Source of the DNA: Aeoliella mucimassa
GTDB taxonomy: Bacteria > Planctomycetota > Planctomycetia > Pirellulales > Lacipirellulaceae
NCBI RefSeq assembly: GCF_007748035.1
Contig: NZ_CP036278.1
Location: 124,001 to 188,000 of the forward strand
DNA length: 64,000 nt
Reading direction: 5' to 3'
Of this stretch, positions 8,782 through 17,223 are shown piece after piece. Numbering within the stretch: position 1 is the stretch's first letter; the number at the start of each line of letters is the position of its first letter. The notes under the pieces are model-generated. The model did no database searches, was not told the origin of the DNA, and saw nothing but the letters and a program-made list of their open reading frames with translations. The translations under genes and the position numbers were made by a program.

Positions 8782-9100
8782 CGTGCGTGTACAGCCAGTT
8801 TTCGGGGTGAGACGAGTTTATTGGTGGCGGTGAACCGGGCCGGAAATTGATCAGTATAAAGGGGCAGCCGGATAGTGACTATCCAAGCTAGATGGTCGAC
8901 AGCGACCGCTAGCACCTGCGGCTCAAGGCAATAATGGCGAATTTTGGATGAAATTCCTTGCAGGAACGACTCAGATGCTTTTCAATGGAATTAGCAAGGC
9001 GGTAACTGACGGTTTGGCAGGATTGCGACAAACTGGACAACCATTGGTGTGCGTCCGCCCTGCACTATCATTGACGACTGCAACGGTGAAGGATTGGTTC
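8782..9100. other. Intergenic region with a short hairpin and a REP-like fragment
   Basis: This 319-base gap lies between the divergent thrS and small PEP-CTERM genes. A small hairpin has arms at 8894-8898 and 8903-8907. The following bases up to about 8926 (GCTAGCACCTGCGGCTC) recall, on the other strand, the AGCCGCAGG core of the REP-like repeat at 5074, but similarity is short. A frame from 8948 reads into the downstream gene but its first 51 residues look random. No other gene is supported. Confidence 0.4.
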
Positions 9101-9415
9101 ATGGGTCGGCATCTTCTCTTCTGCGGCTTTGCCATTATCGCTCTTTCCTGCTCGGTAGCTTCAGCTGCCGTGGTGGATGATCGTGATTTAGATGATCTCA
9201 CCGACACGAGTGCTGTTGCCTTGGGCCAGCCTGAGGACGATCTGGTTGACTCGTACCTGTTGTCAGACGCTTCCACCAAGCGAGTGACCGAACCCCTAAG
9301 TGTGCAAGACACGACCGTCGACACCATGACCATCGCCGAACCCGGCACCCTGGGGCTAGTGGCCCTGGCTGGGCTCATGGGTGGAGCAGTCGCGATGCGA
9401 CGCCGTCTGGGCTAG
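9101..9415 (+). CDS. Small PEP-CTERM sorting-domain protein
   Basis: The product is 104 residues: a signal peptide (LLFCGFAIIALSCSVASA), a short acidic middle rich in Asp, and a C-terminal tail with AEPGTLGLVALAGLMGG followed by RRR. This is the PEP-CTERM layout of Pro-containing motif, hydrophobic helix and basic tail, although the motif here is E-P rather than P-E-P. It is a likely substrate of the exosortase encoded at 13458. With a mature acidic part of only ~55 residues it may be a minimal surface peptide. The frame extends upstream to 8948, but the signal peptide starts at 9101. Confidence 0.7.
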   Translation: MGRHLLFCGFAIIALSCSVASAAVVDDRDLDDLTDTSAVALGQPEDDLVDSYLLSDASTKRVTEPLSVQDTTVDTMTIAEPGTLGLVALAGLMGGAVAMRRRLG

Positions 9416-9496: not shown

Positions 9497-9819
9497 CTTT
9501 CCCCTAGCTCGAGAGTAGTGTGGGGACAATCTCTTGAATCGATACTCCGTGGGTGGTGCACTGCTGCCTGCGGATAAACCGCATAACTGCGGTGTCTTTC
9601 CCCGAATACCGCAGTTTCTGCGAGGCTTTCGTGTCCCCCCTACGCGAGAGCCTCGCCCCTTTTTATGCGGAAATTCAAGCCACTGGTGCGCTAGCTGTGG
9701 ATGCCCGTGGGACGACGGAAGTGCTACCCACCGCACATCTCTAAGCTATAGAATACTTGAGTATCGTAAATCGACTCCGATTTGCTTGGAATCTTTCACC
9801 CACGACTGGAGTATTCGAA
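9497..9819 (+). promoter_or_regulatory. Leader region before the Ni-SOD gene with two tandem hairpins
   Basis: No gene is supported in this stretch. Two hairpins follow one another: arms 9585-9593/9608-9616 (nine pairs, AACTGCGGT with ACCGCAGTT), then arms 9620-9627/9649-9656 (eight pairs, GCGAGGCT with AGCCTCGC) followed by CCCTTTTT. The second resembles an intrinsic terminator located about 160 bases before the Ni-SOD start. An antiterminator/terminator arrangement is possible but unproven; they could equally be the end of an unseen small RNA. Confidence 0.4.
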
Positions 9820-10392
9820 ATGAAGACACGCTTCATGCTATTTGCCGCCGCCCTGATCATGTCGCTTCCTACCGCTGGCCGGGTGCTGGCTCACTGCCAA
9901 GTGCCTTGCGGCATCTATGGCGACGAACGCCGCTTTGAGGAAATGCTGGAAGATACCCAGACCATCGCCAAGGCGATTACTCAAATCAAAGAACTCTCGG
10001 GCACCCACGACGCGAATGGCCACAATCAGTTGGCTCGTTGGGTAAGCACCAAGGAAGCCCACGCCAGCAACATCCAAGAGATTATTGGTCAGTACTTCCT
10101 GGCCCAGCGCATCAAGTCTGACAAGGAGAACTACGTCGATCAGCTCAAAGCGGCTCACGGCGTGATTGTAGCGGCCATGAAGTGCAAGCAGTCGGCCGAG
10201 CCCGCCACGGCCAAGGCCCTGGAGGAAGCGATTCACGACCTGTACCGCGCTTACGAAGGTAAGGAACCGGTACTAGGCGAAGCCGAGCACGCGGCTACCC
10301 ACGCGGTGACAACTGCCGTGGAAGCCGCTCACGAAGCCCATGCCGAACACAGCCACGAGGCTGGGCACGATCACGAACACGCTGCTCACTAA
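9820..10392 (+). CDS. sodN: Nickel superoxide dismutase homologue, exported, with His-rich tail
   Basis: The product is 190 residues. A signal peptide (residues 1-24, ending RVLA) precedes HCQVPCGIY, which matches the Ni-SOD nickel hook (His1, Cys2, Pro5, Cys6, Gly7, Tyr9). Predicted cleavage places His25 exactly at the mature N-terminus, where its amine and imidazole are needed to bind nickel. The helical body fits the four-helix-bundle subunit. The last ~36 residues contain ten histidines, absent from classical Ni-SOD, and could hold or store nickel. No sodX-type protease gene is adjacent, consistent with maturation by signal peptidase. Expected reaction: dismutation of superoxide outside the cytoplasmic membrane. 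The frame reaches back to 9757, but 9820 starts the signal peptide. Confidence 0.82.
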   Translation: MKTRFMLFAAALIMSLPTAGRVLAHCQVPCGIYGDERRFEEMLEDTQTIAKAITQIKELSGTHDANGHNQLARWVSTKEAHASNIQEIIGQYFLAQRIKSDKENYVDQLKAAHGVIVAAMKCKQSAEPATAKALEEAIHDLYRAYEGKEPVLGEAEHAATHAVTTAVEAAHEAHAEHSHEAGHDHEHAAH

Positions 10393-11485: not shown

Positions 11486-12550
11486 TTAGTTCAGTGAGCC
11501 TAAGCCGTACCGGGTAATTCGGTTGAGCGTGGCAGTACCGAGCGAGACGAAGCCGAACACACGTTCCATGGGCTGCGTGAATCGCGACAGCACCCCGTCG
11601 AACTTACGCATTCTGTCCTCGGCGATGAACAAGCGGTCGCCAGGCAGCAGTTGGTAGTTGGTTTCGGTCACCGCCCCTTGGGTGATGCCTTCGTAGTCGA
11701 CTTCGAGAATCTGCTCGCAATCCATGCCAGGTTGGGCAGGGCGGGCGATGTAGATTCGCGTGCTCGAAAGCTGGCTCAAACCGCCGATCGAGGCAATCGC
11801 GTCGAGCACCGTGTCGTTGCCCGTGATGGGGGCCGTCACGATGTTGTCGCCGAACCCAGCACCCTGAGTGATGATGTAGTATTTCTTGCTGTTGTAGCTG
11901 AAGATGTCGACCACCACTTCGGGGTCCACCAGGTACTCCGACAGCTTCTCTTCAATGCGAGCCTTGGCCTCTTCCACGGTGAGGCCGGTTACGTATACCG
12001 AACCGTAGGTGCCGAGATTCACGCGGCCGTCCATACCGACGAGGTGCTCGCCGACAATCTGCTGAGCCCCGGCCGATACGCCGAGCGACACCGACACTTC
12101 CACGCCGGGGTAGAGCTGCGACAGGTGGCGGCGAATCGATTCCTGAGCGTCGTCGATCGTCTGATTGGCGACTTCCACGCGGCCGTAGCTGGGGCCGAGG
12201 TCGATCTTGCCCTCGGGGTCCACAAAGTAGGCGTTGCCGATGGGATCGCGCTGATCGTCCGCACCAATGGCACGCACTAGCAGACCATCGAACGGTTCGA
12301 TGACGTGGGGCGGCTTGGGCACGATTTTCACCGCGTTAATCAGTAGAATATCGGGTGGTTCGATCACGTAAGGTGGCAAAGTCACCATGTCCTTCTCGCG
12401 GCCAGCCGGATTCACCGGGGGGCCTTGGACCGGGTTCATGGGGAACGGTTCGCGTGGTGCCATAAAAGCGGTACACCCGGTGGTCGCAAGAACCAGAAGC
12501 CCGAGGGCGGCCATCAATGGGCGGCGATAGGAAAAGTGGATGTTCGTCAT
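11486..12550 (-). CDS. Wza-like polysaccharide export lipoprotein
   Basis: The product is 354 residues. The N-terminus is a lipoprotein signal (LMAALGLLVLATTGC) with lipid attachment at that Cys, so it is likely anchored in the outer membrane. A YVIEPPDILLINAV segment starts the poly-export domain, and SLBB-type repeats follow around GQHxVG-like EHLVGMDGRVNLG and the ITQGAGFGDNIV stretch. It would form the outer-membrane channel for an exported polysaccharide. The frame is open to 12859, but the lipoprotein signal fixes the ATG at 12550. It is divergent from the exosortase and Wzc-like genes. Confidence 0.9.
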   Translation of the reverse strand: MTNIHFSYRRPLMAALGLLVLATTGCTAFMAPREPFPMNPVQGPPVNPAGREKDMVTLPPYVIEPPDILLINAVKIVPKPPHVIEPFDGLLVRAIGADDQRDPIGNAYFVDPEGKIDLGPSYGRVEVANQTIDDAQESIRRHLSQLYPGVEVSVSLGVSAGAQQIVGEHLVGMDGRVNLGTYGSVYVTGLTVEEAKARIEEKLSEYLVDPEVVVDIFSYNSKKYYIITQGAGFGDNIVTAPITGNDTVLDAIASIGGLSQLSSTRIYIARPAQPGMDCEQILEVDYEGITQGAVTETNYQLLPGDRLFIAEDRMRKFDGVLSRFTQPMERVFGFVSLGTATLNRITRYGLGSLN

Positions 12551-13457
12551 GGCCCCGTTTGCCTGTGGAAAAGGTGATTCTGCGTGAGGAGCGTGTTTTC
12601 GCGCCTGCAACAGTTCATGCGCAGGTGGGTCAATTCGACCGGCATAGTCGTCACATTCGTAATAATCGGTAGAGTCGCTCGCCAACTTTGCCTGCGATTC
12701 GGAAATCGCCACGATTCGAACGAAAGTTGTTTTTGCTAGCAGCCGGTGTGGTGGCAAAGAATTGCGGCAGATTCCCGCGAACCATCCGCTTGTGGGCTGC
12801 GTAACCAACAACCGGGCCACGGTACAGCCGCGATAATTGGCACGGCTGGCAAGCGGCAAAGATTAATAAAGCACGCTGTGCCGCTGCCTGCAGGCTCGTA
12901 GATCCCCGTTTCGTCGACCGGAAACACTTACTTTTCCACTGGATTGTGGCCTCTTCTCCCCGGAACGAGCACCATGCGACACCCGCTGTTCGACCGTTTT
13001 CCGCTGTTTGACAGAATTTTGCACCCCGCTTATCTTCAATTTCAACGCGACCGTTCCCAGGATCTACCCTTAGGGTGGGTAGATCGAGTCTGTCGATGGA
13101 TCTGGGGAGTGTTGCCTTCTCAGCGAGCAGGCTCGGGATTCGCCCCTTGGCGGTTCCCAGCGGGCTTGGTCCCGTTGACCCTGGTAGCCTTACCAGTGGT
13201 AGAGTCCAGGAAGACGGAACTTGCCTCGCGGACACCCAATTGGGGTCGAATCGAACGATGGGAGATATCGTTCGGCGAGGCCCACCAACGGCCGGCTACC
13301 CGGCGGGATGGTCCTGTTACGAGAGGCCCAGAATCGCCGCGGAGTTCGACCCAGAAACAACATTAGCCAATTTACACCCTTGTTTACGCAGCAAGGGTGA
13401 AATCATTGCGATACCCGTCATCCAGTCCCCAACGTTCAGACTCTCTCTTTTACCACT
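12551..13457. promoter_or_regulatory. 0.9-kb intergenic region with a cluster of hairpins before the exosortase gene
   Basis: No protein-like frame is present. Between about 13060 and 13320 several stems occur in close succession: GATCTACCC with GGGTAGATC (about 13060-13085, nine pairs), CTGGTA with TACCAG (about 13180-13196), and CGAACGAT with ATCGTTCG (about 13252-13275). This density suggests a structured RNA, either the 5' leader of the exosortase mRNA or an independent small RNA. I could not match it to a known riboswitch, RNase P, SRP, 6S or tmRNA pattern. Divergent promoters for the Wza-like and exosortase genes should also lie here. Confidence 0.45.
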
Positions 13458-14600
13458 ATGAGCAGCACCTCGGTTCCTCAAGGCGTCAGTTTCATCGGCA
13501 ATTCGTCGGAGTTGCAGCCCCAATCTCCTGCCGATCAGCGTTGGAGTTTGGTCGCTCTGTTGACCGGCATGGCTTTGTTGATTGGGATCTATTGGAATAG
13601 CTTCACGATTGTCAAAGACTTCTGGCTCGACGACACCTACTCGCACGGGTGGATAATCCCGCTGCTAGCGATTTTTCTGATGTGGTGCCAGCGTAAGCCG
13701 TTGGGGGGGGCGATTGATCGCGACCAGGAAAACAAAAACATGATGATCGTGGGGGTGCCGCTGGCGGTATCCCTGACCGTTTACATGCTGGGGTTCCACG
13801 CCATTGGCTGGGTGCTGTATGCCGTTTCGTTGCTCATTTGCCTGGGGGTCGTCTTCCGGTTCCACGAGTTCGAGGTATTCGGGCCAATGGACCGCTGGAT
13901 CGGCGCAGGGCTGGTGATGGTCTCCCTGGCCATACGGCTCTTCGGGACCTACCGAGATAATCTGCCGATCGACCGGTATACCTTCCTGCCAGCGATGGTC
14001 GGGGTGTTCTTGATGGTCGGGGGCATGCCGCTGATTCGGCGGATGTGGGCCTCGATCCTGTTTCTCTTCTTTATGATGCCGATTCCTTCGATCGTAGAAG
14101 GAAAGCTGCTGTGGAGTTTGCAGCGTGTCGCTGCGATGGCCAGCACGACGATTCTGCAGGTGCTCGGCGTTATCGCCCACCGCACTGGTTCGCAGATTCA
14201 CGTCGATGGGCTCGAGCAGACGCTGGAAGTAGTCGGTGCGTGTGCTGGCATGCGAATGGTCACCATCTTTTCGGCCATGGTCATTGCACTGGTGCTGATT
14301 ATCGAACGTCCCTGGTGGGAGAAGCTGATCCTGCTGATCAGCGCGCTGCCGATTGCCATTATTACCAATGTGATCCGCATTACTGCTACCGCCTTGCTTT
14401 ACCTGGCGGTGGAGCACTCGGCGGAGAAGGAATTCTGGCATCAAGTCATTCACGACTGGGCCGGGCTTGCCATGATCGGCGTGGCCTTCGGCATCATGTG
14501 GTTTGAATACAAGGTCCTTTCGTGGTTGTTTGTCGAGGAGTCGGGCGACGCCTTGCACTCGATGAATGTCCCCGGCGGTGTTCCCACGGCCAGGTCCTAA
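13458..14600 (+). CDS. xrt: Exosortase (planctomycete type)
   Basis: The product is 380 residues with about eight to ten hydrophobic segments. The three catalytic positions of exosortases are visible: Cys in EVVGACAGMRM (~residue 260), Arg in ITNVIRITATAL (~300) and His in VIHDWAGLAMIG (~336). Exosortases are inner-membrane proteases/transpeptidases that process the C-terminal PEP-CTERM signal of exported proteins. The early DTYSHGWIIPLL motif is typical. It fits the planctomycete XrtU group by context, though I cannot assign the subtype surely. It is followed 232 bases later by a Wzc-like gene and opposed by a Wza-like gene, the usual coupling of sorting with exopolysaccharide. Confidence 0.92.
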   Translation: MSSTSVPQGVSFIGNSSELQPQSPADQRWSLVALLTGMALLIGIYWNSFTIVKDFWLDDTYSHGWIIPLLAIFLMWCQRKPLGGAIDRDQENKNMMIVGVPLAVSLTVYMLGFHAIGWVLYAVSLLICLGVVFRFHEFEVFGPMDRWIGAGLVMVSLAIRLFGTYRDNLPIDRYTFLPAMVGVFLMVGGMPLIRRMWASILFLFFMMPIPSIVEGKLLWSLQRVAAMASTTILQVLGVIAHRTGSQIHVDGLEQTLEVVGACAGMRMVTIFSAMVIALVLIIERPWWEKLILLISALPIAIITNVIRITATALLYLAVEHSAEKEFWHQVIHDWAGLAMIGVAFGIMWFEYKVLSWLFVEESGDALHSMNVPGGVPTARS

Positions 14601-14832
14601 CTGCCCCGCGGGGTGTTGAATAAATGCCACAGGAGGTGGAAGTTTGGCAACATCTGCAGGCCATTGCTGGTTCCTGACCAATGATTGAAAGCCCTAATTC
14701 TCGGCGTTTAGAGAAGTTTCGAGAGTTTGGCTTCAAACTTGCTTTGTAACCAACACCAACGCAGTCTCCGTTCTGCAAGCTTCGTACACACCTAGTCTCG
14801 GCAGCCATTACCCCTGAGGAGAGATTATCGCA

Positions 14833-17223
14833 ATGGCTAATCACGACCCAAACGCTTCCTCGATGGATGGCGGGAACTCACCGATGGTTCCTGCACCGAT
14901 GAACAAGAACGATGTTCAACAATCGCTGATGATTCAGCAACCGTATGCCAGCCCCAACTTTGTCCGCACTCCATCGGTAGTCACCGGGGGGATGGACGCC
15001 TCGGGGTTTGTTAACGCCTTGCGCCGGCGTTGGATGCTGGCCACCTTCATGGGCCTGCTGCTAGCAGGTGGTGTCGGTGCAGCACTGTTCTTCCTGTTCC
15101 CCGAGTCCGACACCGCTGTCGCTCGCTTTATTGTGCGAGCCGACACCATGACCATTATCGAAGGCCCCAAAAACATTAGTGGGGCGAGAGACTTCGATAT
15201 CTTTCGGGCGACTCAAGTTGCCCAAATGAAGAGCTTTAACGTGATTAACACGGCTCTTAGTAATCCCAGCATCACAAACAGCAAATTGCTTAACGAAGCG
15301 GATAATGCGGCGATGTGGCTGGCCGACAACATCGATGTACGCTTTGAAGGCGACAGCGAATTGATGCGGATCTCGCTGACCCAAAGCACTGGTAGCGATG
15401 GCGACGAAATGAGAGAAGAGCTACGCAATATCGTGAATGCGATGTGCGACGCCTACAAAGAGCAAGTGGTGACCAAGAATCGCTACGAACGTAGCGAAAT
15501 CCGTGAAACCCTGATTGGTACCTTCAAGGAACTGAACGAAGATATTCGTGATAAGTGGGAAGAGTATCGCACGATTGCGAACGACTTGGGTATTGCAGCC
15601 GACGGTCAGTACGATCCTTCGGTGCGGATGCTTTTTGAGCAGCTCACCGCCAAGTTGAAAGAGCGACGCGACCTGGAGGAGCAGATTCGAGGGATTCAAC
15701 TCGAATACGCTCGCTGGAAGTCGTTTAAAGACAATCCTGATCTCAAAGAGCAGAACATCATTGCCCAGGTTTCCGCGGATGAAAACATCCTGATGATGGA
15801 ACAGGAACTGTTGTACCTGCAGATGCAAAAGCGGGACGCCGAGAAGCGTTCGCGAGGTCGGATGAACTCCGAAGTGCAGCGTGTCCAAACTCAGATCGAT
15901 CAGCAGAACCAATTGATTCAACGGGAACGTGCTCAATTGCGTCAGCAAATCGAACAACAAATGGCCAACGCTCCCGATATCGAGTTGGCTCTCTACACTC
16001 AAGAGTTTAATCGCCAGCTTCAAGTACTCGGTGGACGCCTGCAGCAGCTCAAGGATGGCTACGATGTACCTTCGAAAGATGGTGAAGTGATTCGCGAGTT
16101 GGGTATCTCCGAGATTGTCACCGAACTCGAAGCCAAGGCCCAAGGCTCCACCGAATTGGTGGTTCGCGAAGCCGAAATCAAGCAGCTTGAACAAGTGGCC
16201 GAAGACCTTGGCCGCCGTATTCAAGCTTGGGAAATCGAAGAGAAAGCCGAAGAGCGAATTGAGCTGTACGAAAGTGCCTACATTTTGCCAGGCATCAATA
16301 AGCTGCAGCACTATGCGATCACTGGTATCGGTAGCCTGGCCACCTTGGTGGTCGCCTGCCTGGGCATTGCTTACCTTGAGTTCCTTGGTCGTCGCCTGAA
16401 TGGCCCGAAGCAAGTGGACGAAGGTCTTGGCATCCGCGTGGTCGGTACCCTGCCAAAGCTCAAGGCACGTCATCAGGCTCAGATCACCGAATCGATCGAC
16501 AGTGTGCGTACCGCACTCATGCACGAATCGAGCTCCAAGCAGCGGCAAGTGGTGATGATCACCAGCCCGCGAGCGATGGAAGGTCGTACGACGGTCGCCA
16601 GCCAACTGGCTGGTAGCTTGGCTCGTGCCGGTCGTCGCACCTTGCTGATCGACGGCGACCTGCGTCGTCCTGCGTTGCACTCGCTGTTCAACGTGCCGCT
16701 CGAAGATGGTTTGTGCGAAGTACTGCGTGCCGAGGCCGATGTGTCGGACGTGGTGCGAGCCACTTCGGCCGAAGGCCTGTGGCTGATGACCGCTGGTTAC
16801 TGCGACGCCGAAGCGGTGCACGCCATGGCCACCGACCAGATTCAACCGATCTTCGACAAGCTTCGTTCCGAATACGACTTTGTGATCATCGACGGTGCCC
16901 CGGTGCTCGGTTTGTCCGACTCGCTGATGATGGGCCAACACTGCGACGGTGCTCTGCTGAGCGTGTTGCGGGACCACACCACGGTGCCCGACATCTATCA
17001 GTCGAGCGAACTGCTCCGCAGCGTCGGCGTCCGCCTGATCGGCTCGGTCGTCAACGGTGTCTCGGCCAAGTCGGACCGACGTGTCAGCCACCTGCAAGTG
17101 GCCGCTCCGAAGTCGAATCGCAAGCAGATCAAGAGCAAGCCGGCCGAAGCTTCGGTCGCCAGCGAGCCCTCGGCTGCCAGCGACGATAATGACTTCGATT
17201 TTAGCGACCTGTCCGACGACTAA
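14833..17223 (+). CDS. Wzc-like polysaccharide chain-length / BY-kinase protein with degenerate P-loop
   Basis: The product is 796 residues: a cytoplasmic N-tail, first TM (~68-92), a long periplasmic coiled-coil Wzz-type region rich in Gln/Glu (~150-480), second TM (~495-515), then a MinD/BY-kinase-like domain. In that domain Walker A' is intact (LLIDGDLRRP) and a Walker-B-like FVIIDGAP is present. The P-loop reads SPRAMEGRTTVASQLA, where the expected GEGK[S/T] has Met for Gly and Arg for Lys. The C-tail (ending FDFSDLSDD) is acidic and has no tyrosine cluster. It may therefore control polymer length without normal autokinase activity. GGAGAG precedes the ATG. Confidence 0.88.
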   Translation: MANHDPNASSMDGGNSPMVPAPMNKNDVQQSLMIQQPYASPNFVRTPSVVTGGMDASGFVNALRRRWMLATFMGLLLAGGVGAALFFLFPESDTAVARFIVRADTMTIIEGPKNISGARDFDIFRATQVAQMKSFNVINTALSNPSITNSKLLNEADNAAMWLADNIDVRFEGDSELMRISLTQSTGSDGDEMREELRNIVNAMCDAYKEQVVTKNRYERSEIRETLIGTFKELNEDIRDKWEEYRTIANDLGIAADGQYDPSVRMLFEQLTAKLKERRDLEEQIRGIQLEYARWKSFKDNPDLKEQNIIAQVSADENILMMEQELLYLQMQKRDAEKRSRGRMNSEVQRVQTQIDQQNQLIQRERAQLRQQIEQQMANAPDIELALYTQEFNRQLQVLGGRLQQLKDGYDVPSKDGEVIRELGISEIVTELEAKAQGSTELVVREAEIKQLEQVAEDLGRRIQAWEIEEKAEERIELYESAYILPGINKLQHYAITGIGSLATLVVACLGIAYLEFLGRRLNGPKQVDEGLGIRVVGTLPKLKARHQAQITESIDSVRTALMHESSSKQRQVVMITSPRAMEGRTTVASQLAGSLARAGRRTLLIDGDLRRPALHSLFNVPLEDGLCEVLRAEADVSDVVRATSAEGLWLMTAGYCDAEAVHAMATDQIQPIFDKLRSEYDFVIIDGAPVLGLSDSLMMGQHCDGALLSVLRDHTTVPDIYQSSELLRSVGVRLIGSVVNGVSAKSDRRVSHLQVAAPKSNRKQIKSKPAEASVASEPSAASDDNDFDFSDLSDD

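Follow-up and report, generated by a model that had tools for sequence, protein, structure and literature searches.

As judged from its sequence and that of its relatives, the protein described here is quite probably a Sec-exported nickel superoxide dismutase (Ni-SOD) of a SodX-independent subfamily, in which the nickel hook would be freed by signal peptidase, and it bears an accessory C-terminal tail. It is encoded in the window, the 64,000-nucleotide stretch of Aeoliella mucimassa DNA that was analysed. The first-pass annotation had viewed the protein by itself, as an unusual case; it belongs instead to a large subfamily, and was compared within a set of 81 distinct planctomycete Ni-SOD proteins, comprising 67 of the exported type and 14 of the classical type.

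The reading frame (Table 1) is complete from ATG to TAA, and its extent is exactly that first noted. On one side the gene is flanked by a PEP-CTERM-like protein and on the other by a convergent open reading frame. A promoter scan of the gene found nothing, and no nickel-supply gene was recognised as a recurrent Ni-SOD neighbour in the neighbourhood comparison. An exosortase/exopolysaccharide locus lies beside the gene (window positions 8948-9415 and 11486-17223), with a PEP-CTERM-like protein, a polysaccharide export protein, an exosortase (PF09721) and a large AAA-domain protein among its contents.

Table 1. Features of the Ni-SOD gene in window coordinates, with the basis for each assignment
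Feature	Position	Strand	Basis
GGAG, likely ribosome-binding site	9808..9811	+	direct reading; 8 bases upstream of ATG
Exported-type Ni superoxide dismutase gene, 190 aa	9820..10392	+	Pfam Sod_Ni, E 2.7e-33
Predicted signal peptide, 24 aa, V-L-A end	9820..9891	+	core hydrophobicity and -3/-1 motif; homologues agree in position
Nickel hook HCQVPCGIY, predicted mature N-terminus	9892..9918	+	H1, C2, C6 = nickel ligands by homology
Sod_Ni domain, four-helix bundle	9883..10257 (residues 22-146)	+	Pfam, AF2 model, structure comparison
C-terminal tail, last 36 residues, 10 His	10282..10389	+	sequence count; lower-confidence model

Fold and nickel site

The match to Pfam Sod_Ni (PF09055) scores 115.7 bits against a cut-off of 25, and the cut-off of the NCBIfam sodN equivalog (TIGR02753) is missed, at 38.6 bits against 90. 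The AF2 model is a confident four-helix bundle with a mean pLDDT of 88, the tail residues being modelled at lower confidence (pLDDT of about 68-80). Foldseek ranked a solved Ni-SOD first for this model, and structure comparison likewise placed the solved Ni-SODs first, with a Z of 14.7, the best-scoring bundle of unrelated type reaching 11.5. Streptomyces SodN (PDB 1T6U/1Q0D) has in common with the window protein not only this fold, but also the hook H1-C2-x-x-P5-C6-G7-x-Y9 and an N-terminal extension that needs to be removed, although in sequence it is very distant from the exported type (profile E of 0.0026).

Throughout the 67 exported proteins, the nickel ligands H1, C2 and C6 are invariant, as are P5 and G7, while position 9 is either Tyr or Phe. 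The exported type differs from classical SodN at Asp3, which is replaced by Glu or Gln, and in the columns of Arg47, which is invariantly His, and of Lys64, which is Met or Leu; the Tyr62 column is invariant Tyr. This second-shell mapping is tentative, because the alignment to the Streptomyces enzyme is weak in places, as its profile E value reflects. Nickel binding by the exported type is likely and dismutase activity probable, the latter not to be taken for granted since the second-shell residues are unlike those of the characterised enzyme.

These differences, together with the score under the sodN equivalog cut-off, raise the question as to whether the window protein, though exported and cut at His1, serves as a periplasmic Ni/Cu-binding or chaperone protein descended from Ni-SOD rather than as a dismutase. 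Metal binding by exported non-SOD proteins that start with His is on record (PMC12537917). Such a function is nevertheless rather improbable, given that every direct nickel ligand is kept along with P5, G7 and Y/F9 in 67/67 proteins, that the Tyr62 column does not vary, and that the fold is that of Ni-SOD. Furthermore, the classical planctomycete enzymes, too, have lost Arg47 and Glu17.

Leader, predicted cleavage site and SodX

The signal peptide of the window protein, MKTRFMLFAAALIMSLPTAGRVLA, occupies residues 1-24: the charged MKTR of the n-region is followed by the hydrophobic core, and V-L-A fills positions -3 to -1; residue 25 is the His of the hook, and HCQVPCGIY follows without a gap. 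The cleavage site was predicted by the -3/-1 rule and by comparison of homologues. In n-region charge, core and -3/-1 residues, the leader is by rule that of a protein exported through Sec and cut by signal peptidase I; it contains no twin-arginine motif, and S26 signal peptidase genes are present in the genome. The first-pass annotation had placed the hook directly behind a signal peptide, and this arrangement recurs in the 67 homologues.

All 67 exported-type proteins possess a hydrophobic leader (best 10-residue Kyte-Doolittle mean of 2.18-3.46), as against 1 of the 14 classical proteins by the same criterion. Although these leaders are otherwise widely different, a signal-peptidase motif ends exactly at His1 in 60 of the 67, so that the predicted export and cut at His1, too, extend well beyond the window protein. 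Among the exported proteins, 90% have A, G or S at -1 and 94% have A, G, S, V, T, C, L or I at -3, whereas A, G or S makes up 31% at -2 and 10% at -4. As read from the aligned leaders, the residue pattern before the hook is a signal peptidase I signature placed exactly at His1.

In seven of the 67 proteins, no usable motif precedes His1. Five of these belong to a single lineage, family f35, in which signal peptide and hook lie further apart; the other two are L026 and L054. In f35 (L058, L060, L061, L053 and L050), no small residue precedes His1, the endings seen being PPL|H, AW|H, AR|H, PR|H and AF|H. Signal peptidase alone therefore cannot free the hook in all members, and the rule is common rather than universal. 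These seven relatives, with their longer or unfit pre-hook stretches, would need trimming, which bears on the possibility that in the window protein signal peptidase cuts elsewhere and a second protease trims the product to His1. An alternative site, PTAG|RVLA, is formally allowed by the -3/-1 rule. For the window protein, however, trimming in two steps appears quite improbable, as the motif ends exactly at His1 in so many proteins despite their diverse leaders, and no SodX-like gene lies nearby.

The cysteine close behind the leader might also suggest a lipoprotein, lipidated at Cys2 by signal peptidase II. This is strongly disfavoured, to the point of being negligible: the invariant His before the Cys does not fit a lipobox, the pattern [LVI][ASTVIG][GAS]C is found in 1 of the 67 proteins, which is not the window protein, and lipidation would destroy a nickel ligand.

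Classical SodN is accompanied by SodX and has a short, mostly non-hydrophobic leader, in contrast to the window protein with its hydrophobic signal peptide, and the SodX model (TIGR02754) has no match in the whole window genome. Thirteen of the 14 classical genes have a SodX match no more than 1 kb away, some of these 13 matches scoring below the curated cut-off and being counted on adjacency, and the lone exception is at a contig end. Conversely, none of the 65 exported-type genes tested has a SodX match within that distance. Three genomes (G100, G169 and G191) carry both types, and in these SodX adjoins the classical gene only. In a tree of all 81 proteins, the two types are parted by one deep branch (support 98/96), and their hooks differ, with HCDGPCGVY and similar in the classical type (n=14) and HC[EQ][VI]PCG[IV][YF] in the exported type (n=67). 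Since both types amount essentially to a single clade each, the SodX-adjacency counts are not independent events, and the value of a Fisher test on them is too strong. On comparative grounds, the proposal of the first-pass annotation that signal peptidase replaces SodX is well supported for the exported type.

The SodX model also gave weak matches in control genomes without Ni-SOD, as expected if SodX is related to signal peptidases. Moreover, the leaders of the classical planctomycete proteins likewise end in A-x-A, with Ala at -3 in 13/14 and at -1 in 14/14. Together, these observations suggest that, for the cut to pass to the general signal peptidase, hardly more would be required than that the leader be hydrophobic.

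The sequence and the comparison thus suggest a route in which the precursor would be threaded through Sec and cut after VLA24 by the general signal peptidase I. Since the cut would itself free the amino group of His1, no SodX protease would be needed. Nickel would then be held by the amino group and side chain of His1, the backbone amide and thiolate of Cys2 and the thiolate of Cys6, and, from the known chemistry of Ni-SOD, would be bound outside the cytoplasm, with superoxide removed there.

Of 392 planctomycete genomes sampled, 55 contain Sod_Ni, and so do 23 of 59 near relatives. The protein nearest to that of the window is from Aeoliella straminimaris (Lacipirellulaceae; 70-72% identical), and the exported type is also carried by other genomes of the window's own genus. 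In Ilyobacter polytropus (Fusobacteriota), an exported-type gene is found on a large plasmid (MNKLVLILSLLILIPNYLFA|HCEVPCGIYDDE..., annotated superoxide dismutase [Ni]); this replicon has no SodX, and its Ni-SOD has no His-rich tail. The plasmid search returned this gene and two classical ones, and no relatives were found in viral contigs. A Paraburkholderia match (L037) was rejected, as it shared the DNA pattern of the leader only and contained no Ni-SOD. Two divergent, SodX-linked Ni-SODs with the hook HCDIPC, from a planctomycete (L013) and from Novosphingobium (L116:2991-3495), are both extended at the C-terminus by a stretch bearing the motif CPY.P...E.VYPVL. A further exported-type Ni-SOD (L064:48-1466, minus strand) runs on for about 300 more residues and is possibly a fusion protein.

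The histidine-rich tail

The first-pass annotation had counted ten His in about the last 36 residues and considered them a possible nickel store or loader that classical Ni-SOD lacks. The count is exactly ten, and the tail is the highest in His among 357 non-overlapping open reading frames (100 aa or longer) sampled over 464 kb of the window genome, in which His averages 2.7% of residues (about 1 in 36) and the next-highest C-terminus has 7. With the tail defined as the residues beyond mature position 118, His amounts to 13.5% in exported tails, compared with 3.9% in exported cores and 4.8% in classical tails, and HxH motifs occur in the tails of 30 of 67 exported but 0 of 14 classical proteins. 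A His-rich tail is restricted to the exported type, being found in 0/14 classical proteins. Its recurrence in related genomes, raised in the same annotation, holds in part: it reappears within the exported branch, but is absent or short in many members, and the tree calls for about 10 gains or losses, of which at least 9 are forced. Labile and missing in many relatives, the tail is therefore an accessory that the enzyme type can do without.

In one relative of the same genus (L032:5938-6546/L074), the tail contains a heavy-metal-binding domain (HMBD, PF19335; 25.8 bits against a cut-off of 23.6) in addition to HTHAKHSHE, whereas the tail of the window protein has neither an HMBD nor its Cys/Met motif. 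That metal-binding modules of different kinds were repeatedly acquired at this position suggests that the tail may aid in the supply or buffering of some metal, and the HMBD-tailed relative favours metal binding in general, rather than of nickel specifically. A His-rich terminal stretch on a nickel protein is also known from the chaperones HypB (Bradyrhizobium) and UreE (Klebsiella), for which a storage or buffering role has been proposed (PMC7055735). Yet while HypB and UreE are cytoplasmic, the tail of the window protein sits on the predicted exported enzyme itself. There, it might loosely bind a transition metal and thereby raise the local concentration near the hook, or it might buffer the hook against the wrong metal, in either case as an accessory that was repeatedly gained and lost.

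Tail length and His number vary widely, and this, along with the many tailless relatives and the number of changes on the tree, could also arise if the tail were drifting low-complexity sequence with no metal role. Drift is unlikely, however, in view of the enrichment of His over both exported cores and classical tails, the confinement of HxH to exported tails, the HMBD at the same place in a relative, and the rank of the window tail among the 357 genes. A metal-related role for the tails also enters a broader proposal, which is possible but put forward tentatively: that throughout the deep subfamily, which includes most planctomycete Ni-SODs and extends to Fusobacteriota, maturation would be by signal peptidase and nickel would be loaded outside the cytoplasm, with the help of recurrent metal-binding tails.

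Other superoxide dismutases, earlier work and implications

The window genome encodes three Fe/Mn-SODs, and no CuZn-SOD (SodC) was found in it. That the exported Ni-SOD fills the niche of SodC is not supported, SodC being no less frequent in relatives that have the exported Ni-SOD (4 of 23) than in those that lack it (6 of 36). The third Fe/Mn-SOD (G000:C1:4570722-4571021; L089:1021-1809) has a twin-arginine-like leader, MSHFSRRNFVFLSSGAAIG... (SRRNFVF...), which suggests that a Tat-exported enzyme loaded in the cytoplasm may exist beside the Sec-exported Ni-SOD. The Ni-SOD is thus not necessarily the only exported SOD of the genome, and its standing as the sole one was rejected.

Export of a planctomycete Ni-SOD is not in itself new, since the signal peptide of such a protein from Roseiconus lacunae (WP_230780104.1), a PF09055 member whose signal peptide ends directly at the His as in the window protein, served to seed a search reported in 2025 (PMC12537917). 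In the accessible part of that paper, only the signal peptide of the Ni-SOD is used, the terms SodX and signal peptidase are absent, and no discussion of a subfamily or tail was found. Cyanobacterial Ni-SODs have been described as cytoplasmic, and strains without SodX as possibly unable to use Ni-SOD (PMC8346466). In the literature covered, which excluded subscription papers, no description of a SodX-free subfamily or of the tails was found. The survey of Ni-SOD diversity by Dupont et al. 2008 (Environ Microbiol) may already refer to signal peptides.

Ni-SOD has hitherto been treated as a cytoplasmic enzyme in need of a dedicated protease. The exported branch is large and barely described, and its export and SodX-independence are well supported by comparison. 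If the exported enzymes do mature in this way, the absence of SodX would not imply an inactive Ni-SOD, the supply of nickel would have to come outside the cytoplasm, and a change in leader hydrophobicity would shift maturation from one signal-peptidase-like protease to another. Furthermore, with metal-binding modules built into the tail, one small protein would suffice for nickel delivery to be tested directly.
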